Origin: Acidobacteriota bacterium
Lineage (GTDB): Bacteria > Acidobacteriota > Terriglobia > Bryobacterales > Bryobacteraceae
Direction: 5' to 3'
Assembly: GCA_947470805.1 (NCBI GenBank)
Contig: CANIVU010000039.1
Span: 1-64,000 of the forward strand
Length of the DNA stretch: 64,000 bases
Part shown: positions 383-26,854 of the stretch, one piece after another
Layout: every line of letters starts with the position of its first letter
Position numbering within the stretch: position 1 is the first letter of the stretch
Translations under genes and position numbers: made by a program
The notes under the pieces: generated by a model
The model's input: only the letters and a program-made list of their open reading frames with translations
Told to the model about the DNA's origin: nothing
The model's database searches: none

Positions 383-2992
383 CTACTGCGCCCGAACGTG
401 CAAAATCGCATTGAAAAGCATCGGAAACTCGCCGTGGTTCTGCCACCGGTAACAAGGATTCGTCCCAAACATCAGAACACGGCCCCTCCCCACAGGGACG
501 TCCAGAATGGCCGCCTTATCGCGGATCTCTCCAGCTCCCTTCAACAATCCGCTCAACTCCGTCCCGGTAAACTTCATGACCGTCCATTTGCTCTTCTGTA
601 CATCGGGAACGGAGAAAACGGGTCCCGCGGCATACCGCACGGGCAGCCGCTTCTTGTCGTACCCATAGAAAACCGGATGCGCCGGCTGCAGTACCTCCGC
701 CTCCACAATCGGCCCGGGCGCATAGAAAGCAGGTGACGTACGCCGCGCTTCCACCTCCCTCGTCAACCCGAACTCCGCCGGGAAGAAGCTCGAACCCCCC
801 AGCGTAATCACAACTCCACCTTCCCGCACGAACTTCTCAATCTCCAGCGCGCCAGCCAGCCCCATGCCCCCGGTAATGTCCTCCGTCTGTCCGTACATTC
901 CCTGATACGCCAGCGGAATCTTCGCGGGCTCAATGTCATAAACAAGCGCCTTCCCACTCCCGTACTGGCTGGGAATCAGCAGCACGTCATAATCCGCCCG
1001 CAACGCGCCCTTCTTCACCCGCTCTTTGTAGATCAGGTCGTACCCCACGCCGTACGTATCCAATGCATGACGAACCCAGCCAACCGGCTGCGTATTTCCC
1101 CACGTGGTGAACATCGCCATTCGCGGCACTTCCACCACATGCCGCTTCACCTCCGGCATTGCTTCCAGTGCAACCGCGCGCAGTCCCAACCCCTCCACCT
1201 CCCGCCGCAATCTCGCCGAATCCGCCACCACAAACGAACCCGCCGGCACCGTCAAACCACCAGCGGTAAACGCCTTCTCCACCGCCTCAAACTTCACGTC
1301 CTTCAACCGGTATCGCAGCGTAATCAACCCGTGTTCGCCGTTGTGCAACACCGCCAACAGCGCTCCCGTCCCCTCCACGCGCCCCTTCACTTCCGCCCGG
1401 TCCACCGCGGTTACAGTGACATCCAACAGAGCCTTATCCGCAATCTCCTTCACGTCAATCAGAGCCGTCAACCCCATCGTCCAACCCGTGTCGTCGTAGG
1501 TCCGCAAATTCGCGTCCGGGAACACCTGCTTCTCCAAAAGGCTCTTCGCCAATCGCCCATACGGCTGGTTCCGCTTCACTACAAACGAACCGGCTCCATA
1601 CCCATTCCAAGCCTCCCGCAGCGCGCCCACTTCAATGCCCTGCATGCGCAGCGTATTCACCACCCAGGCCACACGCGTCGGGTCCTTCTGCCCCGCTGGA
1701 ATCACAAACCCATATGGCGCCCCCTTCGCCCCATCTTCCACCGCATGCAACGACTTCTTATAAAAATTCTCGAGAATCACCCGCGGATGCGCCGCCGCCA
1801 GCTCCAACGCCGACAACACGCCCGTCTGCATGTAATTCGTGTTGTTCCGCAGAGACCACTCCACCTCCTTGTACGCCGGCAGCGGCCGGTACCACTGGCG
1901 CTCCGCCGCGGCGAACCGGTCCCCTTCCCCTTGCACTTTCCGCTTCATCGTGTTCGCGCCGCCGTTGCCGTACGTCTCGTACATCCGCAGCATGCCGTTG
2001 TGGTTCGACGCCATGAAGCCCAAATACCCAACAGACCACATATCCACGAACGCGTGCGTCCACACGCCCGGCATGCCATAGCCAATCAGCTTCGTCATCT
2101 CGTAGTTCGCAAACCACGGCAACTCCGCGTACAGGATCGGATCCAGGTTCGTGTTCTGCGGCGCCTGGCCACTAAACGTATACAGGAACGGAACAGATTC
2201 ATGGAGATCATGCACAATCGGCGGATGCCAATCCAGGTACGCCCGCAGCCAGTTCCGCATCGTTACCTGCGAGTAGTTCATGTCGCGGTTGTTGTCATGA
2301 AAAATGTACTTCCCCCAATACGGCGGCCCCGGCAGACGGTCCTCCTCGCTCTCCTCCTGCACCTTGTAGCGCCGGTACCATTCCACATACCGGTCCCGCC
2401 CGTCCGGCTCCAATAGCGGCGTGATCATCACGATCAGGTTCTTGCGAACACCGTCAAACAGCGCTCCGTCCTCGGCCACCAGCCGGTACGCCAACTCCAT
2501 CAGCATCTCCGGTGGCCCCGTCTCGCTGGAGTGCAACCCGCCGGTGATGTGATACACAGGCTTGGCCTTGTCCAACACCGCACGCGCCTCCGCCTCACTC
2601 ATCCCCCGCGGGTCGGCCAGCTTCGCCAAATACCCCTTGTACGTATCCAACGACGCCATCGTCGCCTCATCCGCAATCACCGCGCTCCAGCACGGCCGCC
2701 CCTCGTCGGTCTGCCCCACTTCAAGAATCCGTAGCCGCTTCGACGCCTTCGCCAGCGCCTCAAAGTAGCGCCGCACCATCACCGTATCGGTCAGTTTTTT
2801 CGGCGTACCGACGTGATATCCCAACACATCCTTCGGCGTCGGAATCCCTTTCACCAGCGGCAGATGATCCACCAGCGGCGACGAAAACTCCGGCTTCGTC
2901 GTCCACTGCTTCACGGACAGTGCAAAGTCCGCATCCAAATCCTGCCCAAAGGCCGCGCTGATCAGCGCCAGGACCAACGAAAAGCGTCGCAT
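383..2992 (-). CDS. Exported M14-family zinc carboxypeptidase
   Basis: An 869-residue secreted metallopeptidase. The chosen ATG at 2992 gives MRRFSLVLALISAAFGQ, a clear Sec signal peptide; the frame stays open 58 codons further upstream but that part overlaps the kinase gene and looks non-coding. The M14 zinc motif HSSE lies at residues 154-157 (His and Glu as ligands), the conserved Asn-Arg substrate site in DNNRDMNY near 233-240, and the third ligand is likely a His in HDLHES near 261-264. The C-terminal roughly 200 residues resemble the glutamine-amidotransferase-like domain often attached to such peptidases. Likely role is trimming C-terminal residues from peptides outside the cytoplasm. 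It follows the kinase gene on the same strand with a 19 bp gap and may be cotranscribed. Confidence 0.88.
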   Translation of the reverse strand: MRRFSLVLALISAAFGQDLDADFALSVKQWTTKPEFSSPLVDHLPLVKGIPTPKDVLGYHVGTPKKLTDTVMVRRYFEALAKASKRLRILEVGQTDEGRPCWSAVIADEATMASLDTYKGYLAKLADPRGMSEAEARAVLDKAKPVYHITGGLHSSETGPPEMLMELAYRLVAEDGALFDGVRKNLIVMITPLLEPDGRDRYVEWYRRYKVQEESEEDRLPGPPYWGKYIFHDNNRDMNYSQVTMRNWLRAYLDWHPPIVHDLHESVPFLYTFSGQAPQNTNLDPILYAELPWFANYEMTKLIGYGMPGVWTHAFVDMWSVGYLGFMASNHNGMLRMYETYGNGGANTMKRKVQGEGDRFAAAERQWYRPLPAYKEVEWSLRNNTNYMQTGVLSALELAAAHPRVILENFYKKSLHAVEDGAKGAPYGFVIPAGQKDPTRVAWVVNTLRMQGIEVGALREAWNGYGAGSFVVKRNQPYGRLAKSLLEKQVFPDANLRTYDDTGWTMGLTALIDVKEIADKALLDVTVTAVDRAEVKGRVEGTGALLAVLHNGEHGLITLRYRLKDVKFEAVEKAFTAGGLTVPAGSFVVADSARLRREVEGLGLRAVALEAMPEVKRHVVEVPRMAMFTTWGNTQPVGWVRHALDTYGVGYDLIYKERVKKGALRADYDVLLIPSQYGSGKALVYDIEPAKIPLAYQGMYGQTEDITGGMGLAGALEIEKFVREGGVVITLGGSSFFPAEFGLTREVEARRTSPAFYAPGPIVEAEVLQPAHPVFYGYDKKRLPVRYAAGPVFSVPDVQKSKWTVMKFTGTELSGLLKGAGEIRDKAAILDVPVGRGRVLMFGTNPCYRWQNHGEFPMLFNAILHVRAQ

Positions 2993-23286: not shown

Positions 23287-24291
23287 TCATCTCGTCTGAC
23301 GATCGCCGTTACTCCCCGTCTGCCGACGATGATCCCAATTCCGCCTCGATCTCCTCAATCGATGGCAGGCTTCCCTCGGCGTTGCCAGATTGGGAAGTGC
23401 GTACTCGACCACCAGCTCCTTCTTGCCTTTGCACAGGATGAGCCCGATGGTTGGATTGTCGCTGGGGTGTTTGAGCATGTCATCGACCGCGGCACGGTAG
23501 AAGTTCATCTTGCCGGCGTACTCCGGTTGGAACGGCCCGGTCTTCAGGTCGATCACCACAAAGCAACGAAGTTTCAGGTGATAAAAGAGAAGATCCAGCC
23601 GGTAGTCGTCGCCGGCGATCGCAAGCAGATACTGGCGCCCGACGAAAGCAAAACCGGTACCGAGTTCCAGAAGGAACTTCTGGATATGCGCCACCAGTCC
23701 GCTCTCCAAGTCACGCTCACCGGCGTCCTTGGAGAGCATCAGGAAGTCGAAGTTGTAAGGGTCTTTCAGAAGCTGCTGGGCCAGAGCGGACTGCGGAGCC
23801 GGCAGTGCTGTGGTGAAGTTCGTGATCCCCTTTCCCTGCCGGCGATACAGCCCTGCCTCGATCTGCATCACCAGCACGCTCCGGCTCCAGCCGTGATCGA
23901 TGGCGGCTTGAGCGTACCACTGTCGTTCCAGTGAGTCCTTCACATGGTCGAGAAGGCGCACGTTGTGCCCCCACGGCAATCTTGCAACAAGCTGTTGCAA
24001 AATTGATTCCTCCGGCCAAGCCTCCGCGAAAGCCTTCATGTACCCGAGGTTCCGGGGGGAAAGCCCCTTCATATCCGGGAACTCCGAGGCCAGGTCCCGC
24101 GAGAGACGAGGGATGACGTTCTTCCTCCAACCCTCCGGCGCCTGCCGCGAAAGAATCTCCCTCTCGATCCCCCAGTACAGCAAAATCAGTTACTGATTGA
24201 CGGCGACGGCCGCCCGCACCTGCGCCGTCTGAATCCGCTACTTGATGCTCTTCAAGAGGGCGGCGTACGACGGCGTGCTTGGCAACGGAAC
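23287..24291 (-). pseudogene. DUF1016/YhcG PD-(D/E)XK nuclease, decayed full-length copy
   Basis: The reading frame runs from about 24291 (STPSYAALLKSIK) through RIQTAQVRAAVAVNQ and LILLYWGIEREILSRQ to the nuclease core YRLDLLFYHLKLRCFVVIDL, which carries the Asp and the Asp-Leu-Lys metal site. Two in-frame stops lie in the N-terminal helical domain, TAG at 24238-24240 and TAA at 24190-24192. A 49-bp deletion at about 23375, seen by comparison with the tail copy at 19675-19857, frameshifts the last 25 codons. A TTG at 24183 could still express about 298 residues. YhcG proteins often travel with restriction and mobile regions. Confidence 0.85.
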
Positions 24292-24409: not shown

Positions 24410-24435
24410 CTCACCAGGATTGGTATGCTCACCAG
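24410..24435 (+). promoter_or_regulatory. Direct repeat / palindrome upstream of the tRNA gene
   Basis: CTCACCAG occurs at 24410-24417 and again at 24428-24435, 18 bp apart (about 1.7 helical turns), and the second copy is part of the small palindrome CTCACCAGTGAG. The repeat ends 15 bp before the tRNA gene. It may be an operator for the tRNA-CDS unit. No convincing -35/-10 pair can be assigned. Confidence 0.3.
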
Positions 24436-24450
24436 TGAGTAGCTGATCTT

Positions 24451-24525
24451 TCCGGGGAAGTTCAGTGGTAGAACGCTCGGCTTAGGACCGAGAAGGCGCT
24501 GGTTCGAATCCAGCCCCCGGATCCA
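24451..24525 (+). tRNA. Atypical tRNA, anticodon UAG, glycine-like body with short variable loop
   Basis: 75 nt fold into a complete cloverleaf. The acceptor stem is TCCGGGG/CCCCGGA (24451-24457 with 24515-24521). The D arm GTTC/GAAC has a standard AGTGGTA loop. The anticodon stem CTCGG/CCGAG carries loop CTTAGGA, with anticodon TAG at 24483-24485. The variable loop is 5 nt (AAGGC) and the T arm is GCTGG-TTCGAAT-CCAGC. Discriminator T and CCA are encoded (24522-24525). UAG reads CUA leucine codons, but bacterial tRNA-Leu has a long variable arm and A73. Here the D arm and U73 resemble tRNA-Gly, while the first pair is U1-A72 as in tRNA-Gln and position 8 is A rather than the near-invariant U. 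No standard identity set fits. It ends 16 nt before the next gene. Confidence 0.85.
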
Positions 24526-24541
24526 CGTTTTCCGAACCTGC

Positions 24542-26854
24542 ATGAGCGAAGACAAACAGAACGGAGCGCAAGCCGCCGGCGTCAATCCGGGCTATGCCGA
24601 ACATCAACTGGCAAAGGCGCTAACCGCGGCCGAGGAGCACCCGGATCCGACCATTCGTCAACGGGCGGAGAAACGCCTTCGACAATGGCAAATGGTTTTC
24701 CGGAACATCCTCTCCGGACACTTGGCGTATGGGTCGCGCACGCCTATCCCCGACGCTCCCACCTGGGCAACGCCGGAAGTCGTGACAGGCGGTTTCGCCA
24801 CCGGTAATTTGCTGGCCGCCGGCCCGCTCCGGCCGCACGAAGTCAGGCTCCTCGAATCCCTTCCGAATATTGAAACTGGCGCGGAGCGAGCGGCACTCAA
24901 CGCACACTTCGTCGGCGGCGAAGGCCTCGCACAGCTCTGTCAGATGTTGGCCAATCGCTGCTACGACGTGGAACTCCCGGAAGAAGGTGCCCTTCTTACC
25001 GTCGCGTGGCTTGCCGAAAACGGCCGTGCCGAAGCCGCTCGCTCTCTCCTCGAACAGCTCGCCCCGCATTTCTCAAAACTCCGCTTCTACCCTGTTCCAA
25101 GAAACGAGCCACGCCGTCTGGAGACGCGCGTACATCTCCAAACGGTCGCCGAGTCGGCGCACGCGCTCCAAACCATTCGGCCCAACGAACGCATCCTGGC
25201 GCAAAAGGAATCCGTCAATGTGTGGGCTCCGTTTCACGACCGCGTCGTAGCTCTCTTCCAGGAAACAGTACAGGACACCTGGCCGTGCAGAATCTTCCCA
25301 CGTGACTGGCCCTCTCGCGCAAAGAAACTGCTCGACGAATTCACCGAGCTGCGAGCTGCTCACACCCTCTGCCGAAAGATGGATCGGCCCAATCAGCACT
25401 ACCGGCAACTGCGGGATCTGCTCGCCAAGTGCGCATCCGACCCAGCCTCACTCACAGGAAAAGAAGTCGGCCGCATCCGGCTGATCCTCACACAGTACCA
25501 ACAAAAACGCGGCACACCCGGCTCAACAGTCTGCGGAACGGCCCGGCAGAAACAAGCCAACGATGTGGCCGCTCCCACGTTCCACGCCGTCGCAGTCTCC
25601 GTTTTGCCACGCCTCTCCGCTCTTCCCCAGGACGAAGGCGTCGATGATGTCGACCCGCTCTGTGGCCCCATCACCACCATCGAGTCCACTGTAAAAGGCG
25701 TGGCAGCGGGAACGCCTCTGCCCTTGCCGGTCAGAAGACGAATCGAGCGGTGCCTCAATGAGACGGTGGAGGTGCTGGTCGAACGCGGCTTCATCACCTC
25801 CGGCGACACGCTGGCAAGGCTGCTGCCGCAGATCACCTCTGCAATTCGCTCCGCCAGTTTCGCCGACCCCCAACTGGAGTGGCTCTACCGCGCAATCTAC
25901 CGTGCCTTTCGGCAGCGGCGCTCCCTGCTGCTTTTGAATCTGGAAAAGCAGGTTCAAATCGAGGAACTGCCGTGGATCAAAGCAATGGAGCCCTTGCGAG
26001 ACGAAACGGCACAAGCGCAGGACCGCGCGAAGAACACGCTCGCGGAGGCCACCACCCTGACCCTGACGTCGTTCCCCTACGCCATCATTCCCAACAAACT
26101 GCTGCAGGAACTTTGCGCACTGGCAAAGGGAGCACAGCTCGACCTCCCTCTCGTGGACGAAGTCGCCGCCGACATTTTCATGGGAAGGTTCTCGGACAAG
26201 TTCGTCGATGCGGCTAAGCGAGCCGCCGCCGTATTGGACGGCACCCTCTACGCCACCTACTATCGGATCGACTGCTCCGCCATCAAGGCGCTCCCCTCGG
26301 CACTGCGTCAGGCCTCTGCACGGCCGACTGCCAACACGTTTGCCGACCTTTGCGTGCACCGCGCAAGTGTTTCGCTAGTTGGTTGGGACACGGTCAGGAA
26401 CGGCATGGTCATCGAGCAGCAGCAGATCCTGACCACCCAGAACCTGGCCGTTCTGTGCAGTGAGTTGGGCCTGACCGGCACACTGCGCGACAGATTTCCC
26501 GCCATGGCCCGAACGTGCCTGACTTGGATCTTCCGCCGGCAACAAACCGACACGCGCGACTGGCACGCCCGCCTCGTAATCCTGAAGAACACCGCCTACG
26601 CCTGGCGGCAAATGCTGTACTTCCTTTCCTTCGTCACTCCCGCCGAACTGGCCGCTTTCCTCGAGTGGGCGAAATCGCAGTTCCAGGAACAGCCAGAGGA
26701 TTTTCAGCTACGATTCCGGCCCGCGTTCACAGGGTTGGTATTGGCGTCGGAGGGAAAAGTCTTCGACGACGATGCCCACGCACGAAGGTTCCTTGGCTGG
26801 TCGAAGGAACGTCATTGGCTCCTGCCGGAGCCGGCCGGCCACCAGTCCCGGTAG
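24542..26854 (+). CDS. Unassigned 770-aa protein directly downstream of the atypical tRNA
   Basis: The ATG at 24542 follows the tRNA CCA by 16 nt and has no Shine-Dalgarno sequence, so tRNA processing would leave an almost leaderless mRNA. The protein is soluble-looking, largely helical and rich in Arg, Leu and Ala, without signal peptide, membrane helix, P-loop, zinc-finger or nuclease motif that I can see. Distinct segments are AYGSRTPIPDAPTWATPEVV then TGGFATGNLLAAGPL (about 65-95), GKEVGRIRLILTQYQQKRG (about 300-320), the mid-part FPYAIIPNKLLQEL (about 515), and the C-terminal RRFLGWSKERHWLLPEP. CTA codons occur at positions 27, 612 and 723, so the adjacent tRNA could in principle read this very message. 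It ends 28 bp before a convergent gene. I do not recognise the family. Confidence 0.75.
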   Translation: MSEDKQNGAQAAGVNPGYAEHQLAKALTAAEEHPDPTIRQRAEKRLRQWQMVFRNILSGHLAYGSRTPIPDAPTWATPEVVTGGFATGNLLAAGPLRPHEVRLLESLPNIETGAERAALNAHFVGGEGLAQLCQMLANRCYDVELPEEGALLTVAWLAENGRAEAARSLLEQLAPHFSKLRFYPVPRNEPRRLETRVHLQTVAESAHALQTIRPNERILAQKESVNVWAPFHDRVVALFQETVQDTWPCRIFPRDWPSRAKKLLDEFTELRAAHTLCRKMDRPNQHYRQLRDLLAKCASDPASLTGKEVGRIRLILTQYQQKRGTPGSTVCGTARQKQANDVAAPTFHAVAVSVLPRLSALPQDEGVDDVDPLCGPITTIESTVKGVAAGTPLPLPVRRRIERCLNETVEVLVERGFITSGDTLARLLPQITSAIRSASFADPQLEWLYRAIYRAFRQRRSLLLLNLEKQVQIEELPWIKAMEPLRDETAQAQDRAKNTLAEATTLTLTSFPYAIIPNKLLQELCALAKGAQLDLPLVDEVAADIFMGRFSDKFVDAAKRAAAVLDGTLYATYYRIDCSAIKALPSALRQASARPTANTFADLCVHRASVSLVGWDTVRNGMVIEQQQILTTQNLAVLCSELGLTGTLRDRFPAMARTCLTWIFRRQQTDTRDWHARLVILKNTAYAWRQMLYFLSFVTPAELAAFLEWAKSQFQEQPEDFQLRFRPAFTGLVLASEGKVFDDDAHARRFLGWSKERHWLLPEPAGHQSR

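Follow-up and report, generated by a model that had tools for sequence, protein, structure and literature searches.

The operator of E. coli thrS is a tRNA-mimicking mRNA leader that lacks an acceptor arm and is bound through its anticodon (PMC9976931). The yjdF riboswitch, a ligand-binding leader with a tRNA-like fold, regulates a bacterial mRNA (PMC9142559). Here we describe a locus in a 64,000-nucleotide (nt) stretch of an Acidobacteriota genome (contig CANIVU010000039.1, positions 1 to 64,000, forward strand; hereafter the window), in which a tRNA-shaped RNA lies directly upstream of the gene for an orphan protein of 770 amino acids (aa). The locus resembles thrS in that a tRNA-like fold occupies the 5' leader of a gene whose product may bind it. 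In contrast to the operator, its RNA is a full cloverleaf with an acceptor arm and a free anticodon, and its protein is no recognizable synthetase. From yjdF it differs in that the RNA is a tRNA-type cloverleaf, recognized by the Rfam tRNA model RF00005, and evolves with its protein.

Type III toxin-antitoxin systems such as ToxIN and AvcID also place an RNA, sometimes in tandem copies, directly upstream of one protein gene. In those systems the RNA is of the pseudoknot type and the toxin is a ribonuclease or a deaminase, whereas the RNA described here has the shape of a tRNA and the 770-aa protein is helical. ToxN, CptN, and TenpN are known type III toxin families, and type III systems have a terminator between the RNA and the gene. 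The protein matched no type III toxin family in Pfam, NCBIfam, or PADLOC. The RNA was found upstream of the gene in 51 of 52 distinct loci and is preceded by a promoter signal; judged from the sequence, it would be co-transcribed, both as a tRNA-like 5' leader of the thrS kind and as an RNA gene upstream in one operon, as in type III systems.

Non-canonical and allo-tRNAs are unusual bacterial tRNAs that can be charged and have altered cloverleaves. The RNAs described here, in contrast, are linked to a single protein family and show no consistent set of identity elements. The window RNA shares its cloverleaf, its anticodon UAG, and its CCA with tRNA-Leu(UAG) (Rfam RF00005). It differs in its short variable loop, U73, and A8, whereas bacterial tRNA-Leu has a long variable arm and A73; moreover, its own genome already contains a normal tRNA-Leu(UAG) (87 nt, long arm, U8, A73).

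The elements of the locus are listed below; R1 denotes a family model built from 40 of the RNAs, that of the window included.

24424..24429 (+): TATGCT as candidate -10 element, with a TG one base upstream, read in the sequence; a weak assignment
24451..24522 (+): tRNA-shaped RNA, positions 1-73 (ARAGORN, RF00005, R1, minimum-free-energy fold)
24481..24487 (+): anticodon loop CUUAGGA (UAG at 24483-24485); across the family C32-U33 is conserved and 34-37 vary freely (parsimony, loop list)
24503..24509 (+): T-loop UUCGAAU, canonical in the window; most Actinomycetota members have GGCRGNN-type loops instead
24523..24525 (+): encoded CCA, not conserved across the family
24526..24541 (+): spacer of 16 nt without a Shine-Dalgarno sequence, as read
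24542..26854 (+): orphan protein of 770 aa, presumed RNA partner, predicted to be almost all-helical (open reading frame (ORF), homologues, AlphaFold2)

ARAGORN called a single tRNA in the window, at 24451-24525 (+), with anticodon TAG. RF00005 matched it with 69.3 bits (E 5e-13), and R1, to which it had contributed, with 84.6 bits. The bases read were U1-A72, A8, A9, U73, a five-base variable loop (AAGGC), and an encoded CCA; the ATG at 24542 follows the CCA after 16 nt that hold no Shine-Dalgarno-like stretch. An earlier note on this DNA had reported the atypical UAG-anticodon tRNA (U1-A72, A8, U73, short variable loop, encoded CCA), its distance from the ATG, and the 770-aa ORF, all of which we found as described. 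In predicted minimum-energy folds of the isolated RNAs, those of loci L071 and L016 form a cloverleaf, the window RNA nearly does so, and that of L010 folds otherwise. The genome to which the window belongs (8.7 Mb) has ordinary tRNAs covering all 20 amino acids, and searches of it gave one match for the tRNA sequence and one for the protein. All 48 tRNA sequences that ARAGORN called in this genome, the window RNA included, terminate in CCA. An A at position 8 occurs among these 48 only in the window RNA and in tRNA-Sec, whose gene lies at L047 2505-2599.

Homologues were gathered by protein, blind to the RNA. The search of genome contigs yielded 16 loci and that of plasmid records six; the homologue at L002 is 99% identical to the window protein. 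Homologues are present in six phyla (Acidobacteriota, Chloroflexota, Planctomycetota, Verrucomicrobiota, Pseudomonadota, and Actinomycetota), and the named cultured carriers are Massilia, Achromobacter, Brevifollis, Nocardiopsis, and Streptomyces. Among the 52 distinct loci having upstream DNA, 51 carry a same-strand tRNA-shaped RNA upstream of the gene. This is the outcome of the linkage check that the earlier note had proposed for its claim that RNA and protein form one unit, and the claim passed it across the six phyla. Left out of the 52 loci were L007, whose contig begins at the gene, the C-terminal fragments L050 and L096, L168, which was found via its RNA and has a broken gene, and an 18-bit hit within L091. 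Loci fetched twice, as recognized by contig number or identical sequence, were also dropped (L049, L059-L069, L097, L098, L145, L147, and L148).

The distribution of the gene is patchy. It was present in 2 of 247 genomes of the window's phylum (own genome counted) and in 3 of 61 relatives (own genome and one C-terminal fragment counted). With the centre genome counted in each case, it was found in 7 of 43 genomes of the genus of Achromobacter deleyi and in 27 of 394 genomes of the class of Nocardiopsis (Actinomycetota).

Of the 52 loci, 49 were scanned with general-purpose tRNA finders (ARAGORN, or RF00005 at its gathering threshold or higher, with one scan below it), which were positive at 42. 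They were negative at L058 and missed six RNAs (L053, L075, L076, L079, L085, and L094), which were recovered by R1 and by eye; R1 had not been built from these six. Loci L146, L149, and L150 underwent the R1 test only and stand outside the counts of loops, changes, spacers, promoter, Mantel tests, and CCA.

The RNAs behave as one family. In the alignment of 40 RNAs, 99.4% of the cells are paired. Double changes were found at 14 of 21 pairs (153 cells), compared to 39.7 in shuffles and 4-18 in slid controls. Across 57 RNAs the tertiary contacts covary too: contact 15/48 is G-C in 46 and A-U in 6; contact 18/55 is G-U in 21, A-G in 29, and G-G in 6; and contact 54/58 is U-A in 21 and G-G in 34. 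The window RNA has a canonical T-loop, as do nearly all of the non-Actinomycetota members. U54 and U55 are absent from 26 of 33 Actinomycetota loci and from the planctomycete L016; loops of the G54-G55 type occur in most Actinomycetota loci and in L016. Given the covarying contacts, the L-shape seems to be kept despite the loss of the bases for T54 and pseudouridine-55. The distances between RNA bodies correlate with those between the proteins (Mantel r 0.71, p 0.0005, 44 loci), with r of 0.60 within Actinomycetota and 0.88 outside. Comparison across the loci established the linkage, as well as a conserved cloverleaf with its tertiary contacts.

R1 was also scored against genomes. In 16 gene-bearing Actinomycetota genomes, picked by hand from the 27, its top hit adjoins the gene. 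Across the 394 genomes, all hits of at least 77.6 bits, a line drawn after the data had been seen and with 12 candidates scored per genome, either adjoin the gene in 24 gene-bearing genomes or belong to genome G628. The G628 hit (L168) precedes a start that resembles the family by eye, MTNGYALGQLGKAFRTATTHEEGLL, and that is then broken by an insertion. The insertion sequence, which looks IS3-like, lies at about 838-2290 (-) of L168 (G628:C13) and interrupts the gene within its first ~30 codons, with the RNA left in place. Six regions were fetched from the upper part of the R1 list; in five the hit coincided with a tRNA-Val, and the remaining one was G628. In a check of eleven genomes, an unlinked hit in G315, an ordinary tRNA-Met, scored higher than the linked one (74.5 vs. 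73.3 bits).

The proteins of the family are about 700-800 aa long, and the isoelectric point (pI) exceeds 7.5 in 19 of 21 members. AlphaFold2 predicts a nearly all-helical structure, with a predicted local distance difference test (pLDDT) score of 85.3 for the window protein and 85.7 for its C-terminal half alone. The gene is under purifying selection (ratio of nonsynonymous to synonymous substitution rates, dN/dS, 0.15-0.38 in 10 pairs). Polar residues invariant in 21 sequences include R459-R460-S461, D544, E625-Q626, Q628, N634, and R689-Q690. No family in Pfam, NCBIfam (searched with the window protein only), PADLOC, or PHROGs matched the protein, and none of 21 members had a match in PADLOC-DB 2.0.0 at E<=1. 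A sequence search of the PDB gave nothing below E 0.98, and Foldseek gave no match at E<=0.001 for the whole model against the PDB and viral structures or for the C-terminal half against the PDB. In the searched libraries, the protein showed no likeness to tRNA enzymes by sequence or fold, and phage records and viral contigs gave no match.

In contrast to the RNA body, which evolves jointly with the protein, neither the anticodon, the discriminator, nor the CCA is conserved in the compared sequences. The 57 RNAs have 33 different anticodon loops, a few of them from degenerate tandem copies; all begin with C32-U33. Seven of the 57 rows have six-base loops, and the anticodon of L082 is CUA, which would read amber. 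The discriminator is G in 36, U in 14, C in 6, and A in 1, and at 12 of 48 loci position 73 (N73) is directly followed by CCA. Most RNAs (52) have U at position 8, whereas 3 have A and 2 have C. The earlier note had expected homologues to share the anticodon and the position-8 change; neither expectation was borne out, and A8 was rejected as a hallmark of the family (3 of 57).

On the protein tree (parsimony, 45 loci), positions 34-36 changed 14, 17, and 12 times, respectively, and positions 32-33 not at all. Free D-loop sites changed 13 and 16 times, as fast as the anticodon. Distances at the anticodon do not correlate with those between the proteins (Mantel r -0.02), nor do distances at the free D-loop sites (r -0.04). 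A cautious reading is that the anticodon is unconstrained; a bolder one, for which the duplication in Massilia rubra described next speaks, is that it is diversified.

Eight loci have two or three tandem RNA copies, and their anticodon loops differ between copies. In L080, the gene-proximal copy has lost its loop, whereas the upstream copy is intact. A segment at L008:4326-5083 of Massilia rubra is duplicated; it comprises the promoter region, the tRNA-shaped RNA, and the first codons of the gene. All 4 bases at positions 35-38 differ between the two copies, compared to 6 of 306 elsewhere in the stretch compared. The second tRNA-shaped copy, at L008:4491, was left out of the counts of loops, spacers, promoter, Mantel tests, D-loop sites, and CCA. 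Other pairs point in this direction as well: over four tandem pairs, the Massilia pair included, 13 of 20 anticodon sites and 7 of 27 free positions had changed (p 0.008); over 15 pairs, these four included, the counts were 26 of 73 and 23 of 104 (p 0.036). The anticodon runs ahead of the free positions in these pairs only, and they were chosen after the data were seen. Five of the 15 pairs show an unchanged anticodon.

In 29 of 47 loci, the first RNA is preceded by a TANNNT hexamer whose end lies 3-14 nt away from it. Among 300 mononucleotide shuffles the mean was 3.7 loci and the maximum 11; the range was one of seven tried on related loci, so that independence is overstated. The start codon lies 1-3 nt after N73 in 24 of 48 loci, as counted by a script that gave no start for L008 and doubtful ones for L087, L089, L092, L094, and L095, among others. 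A Shine-Dalgarno-like pattern was flagged in 4 of the 48. Because the hexamer signal precedes the RNA and the spacers are this short, RNA and gene probably form one transcript that begins with the RNA. We infer that, in most Actinomycetota members, cleavage at the 3' end of the tRNA would produce an mRNA with almost no leader.

The explanation that we consider best, and somewhat more likely than not, is an RNA-protein module whose two parts come from a single transcript; among the examples given in the earlier note, a ribonucleoprotein fits best, a tRNA decoy is possible, and recoding or mischarging as Leu is not supported. Transcription would start at or just before the tRNA-shaped RNA and run immediately into the gene of the large, mostly helical, and mostly basic protein. 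It is likely that the protein binds the tRNA-shaped body (acceptor, elbow, and T-arm) of its own leader, either in cis or after tRNA-processing enzymes have freed the RNA. That the RNA body coevolves with the protein while the anticodon evolves freely suggests a protein that grips the body and leaves the loop exposed. The tandem copies in eight loci and the damaged copy in L080 favor an RNA whose action need not depend on exactly where it lies.

What the exposed loop would do is a more tentative matter. The RNA may restrain the protein as a ligand, with the anticodon loop as bait; the protein would then be released when the RNA is lost or when its loop is damaged, as might be done by the anticodon nuclease of a phage or competitor. 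We regard this as plausible, without holding it to be probable. More doubtful is an extension in which the module would be a mobile sensor, the RNA holding a large helical effector and the variable anticodon loop serving as bait or recognition element. Its loci would be duplicated, and just the anticodon loop would then change fast; one protein scaffold could thereby sense many tRNA-directed attackers, since the loops diverge after duplication, as in Massilia rubra. The bait idea is the boldest reading that the data allow; its only direct support is the variability of the loop.

Several observations weigh against a module of this kind. Locus L058 (genome G111) has an intact gene and a Shine-Dalgarno-like GAGGT, with no tRNA-shaped RNA upstream; the protein may therefore work without the RNA. 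The earlier note had named homologues lacking an upstream tRNA as grounds for refutation, and L058 is one such homologue beside 51 that carry the RNA. Elsewhere in the L058 genome R1 had five hits, of which the two best, the only ones identified, are tRNA-Val and tRNA-Asn. Defence, toxin, and RNA-binding families gave no match to the protein in the searched libraries. Neighboring genes differ across the 11 loci that were read by eye from ORF starts, and no common partner was seen; the Achromobacter loci, which occupy a common site, are the sole exception. Because no neighbor is common beyond Achromobacter, there is no candidate nuclease or effector for the bait idea. The support from pairing is also reduced: the 40 aligned RNAs, tandem copies included, were chosen by tRNA models, which favors pairing, and further pair types number 32, compared to 31.3 in shuffles (225 of 500 shuffles reach it). 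The Mantel tests and pair counts use related sequences, which overstates their independence. In the three of the 27 gene-bearing Actinomycetota genomes that fall below the 77.6-bit line, the linked RNAs score 71-76 bits, within the range of ordinary tRNAs. The control with free D-loop sites, which change equally fast and likewise carry no signal of the tree, weakens the case for a hypervariable anticodon. In the window itself, the gap between the candidate -10 element and the RNA is 21 nt, outside the 3-14 nt range of the family, and the predicted minimum-energy fold of the RNA within a 131-nt context is not a cloverleaf.

Two rivals are serious. In the first, a thrS-like autoregulatory leader acting in cis, the protein would act on cellular tRNAs and, with the tRNA-shaped leader as operator, would repress its own translation, as threonyl-tRNA synthetase does at thrS. 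This would account for an RNA that seemingly begins the transcript and, in half of the 48 loci, abuts the start codon, for a conserved body with a free anticodon, for the basic pI of most members, and for the Shine-Dalgarno-like site of the only member that lacks the RNA. However, an operator fits poorly with tandem arrays whose anticodon loops differ within one locus, and the protein is unlike any tRNA enzyme in the searched libraries; since it is the gene-adjoining copy that is damaged in L080, a strictly position-bound leader is disfavored. On balance we judge such a leader possible, if unlikely.

The second serious rival is a type III-like RNA antitoxin, in which the protein would be a toxin, possibly a tRNA-directed enzyme, neutralized by the RNA as a pseudo-substrate. 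The RNA directly upstream of the gene in what is apparently one transcription unit, the tandem copies at eight loci, and the sporadic distribution given above are as expected for such a system. So are L092, L094, and L095, where frameshifted or deleted gene copies stand next to well-scoring RNAs. We nevertheless consider an antitoxin decidedly unlikely: the protein is a 770-aa helical one that matches no toxin family, L058 keeps its gene intact without the RNA, and spacers of 1-3 nt are too short to hold a terminator between RNA and gene. In L095 (G509:C45), the gene behind the well-scoring RNA is cut down to both ends (profile 6-57 and 714-760).

A role in decoding is improbable for the RNA. 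On this reading it would be a tRNA dedicated to decoding or recoding, either mischarged or used at CUA or at other codons, and the protein would charge or deliver it. The canonical core and the U33 of every member would agree with this, as would the canonical T-loops of the window RNA and of nearly all non-Actinomycetota members. An elongator would be expected to have a consistent anticodon, consistent identity elements, and U54-U55; the window-like members have U54-U55, whereas the family as a whole keeps none of these consistently. Its many anticodon loops, some of six bases and one reading amber, its varied discriminators, the scarcity of CCA after N73, and the absence of U54/U55 from most Actinomycetota copies make this explanation very improbable. 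Given the same variation, recoding or mischarging as Leu is not supported, and recoding by a tRNA-Leu was rejected because the anticodon is not conserved.

A coincidence, in which a mobile gene inserts downstream of tRNA genes as attachment sites and regenerates a partial tRNA, would suit a sporadic module, the common use of tRNA genes as integration sites, and the recombination genes near L058, L005 (by eye), and L053, but its probability is negligible, as it is contradicted by linkage at 51 of 52 loci over six phyla with varied anticodons, by an RNA that forms its own family, tracks the protein tree, and is unlike the tRNAs of its own genome, by the promoter signal and 1-3 nt spacers that bind RNA to gene, and by the lack of an integrase common to the loci read.

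The RNA-protein module that we favor would represent a class of tRNA-shaped RNA joined, in six phyla, to a protein family without a relative detected by sequence or fold in the searched libraries. We found no description of the pair in the literature searched, which comprised open-licence papers of PubMed Central (PMC) and does not establish absence from print. If the RNA is bait or ligand, the module would give bacteria a new means of sensing when tRNA or translation is under attack. As an operator, the RNA would be the first mRNA leader formed by a full cloverleaf that is known to us. Of the first 16 loci, ARAGORN labelled 12 as ordinary tRNAs (Leu, Trp, Gln, Lys, Arg, Thr, Pro, and one undetermined), so automatic annotation probably carries false tRNA genes from such RNAs. 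The module is small and present in named cultured organisms and is thus directly testable.

The module is sporadic and has no common partner gene. A conserved operon partner was sought and rejected, as none was seen in the 11 loci read by eye. The mobile element that the earlier note had offered as a possibility found no support, as no integrase or transposase is common to these loci, although single loci have one nearby. A phage integrase gene lies at L154 6707-7864 (+), downstream of L058, the sole homologue found without the RNA. At L005 7791-9383 (-), 0.5 kb downstream of the gene, an ORF resembles a serine recombinase by eye, and IS982 and IS21 genes lie near L053.

In the window, a gene for a YhcG/DUF1016 PDDEXK nuclease is located upstream of the module at 23290-24183 (-); it matches the N-terminal profile only from position 24, and its start may be missing. 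In the same genome, ARAGORN calls a 75-nt tRNA-Ser(UGA) beside a 90-nt tRNA-Ser(UGA); the shorter one may be another short tRNA of atypical form, or it may have been miscalled.

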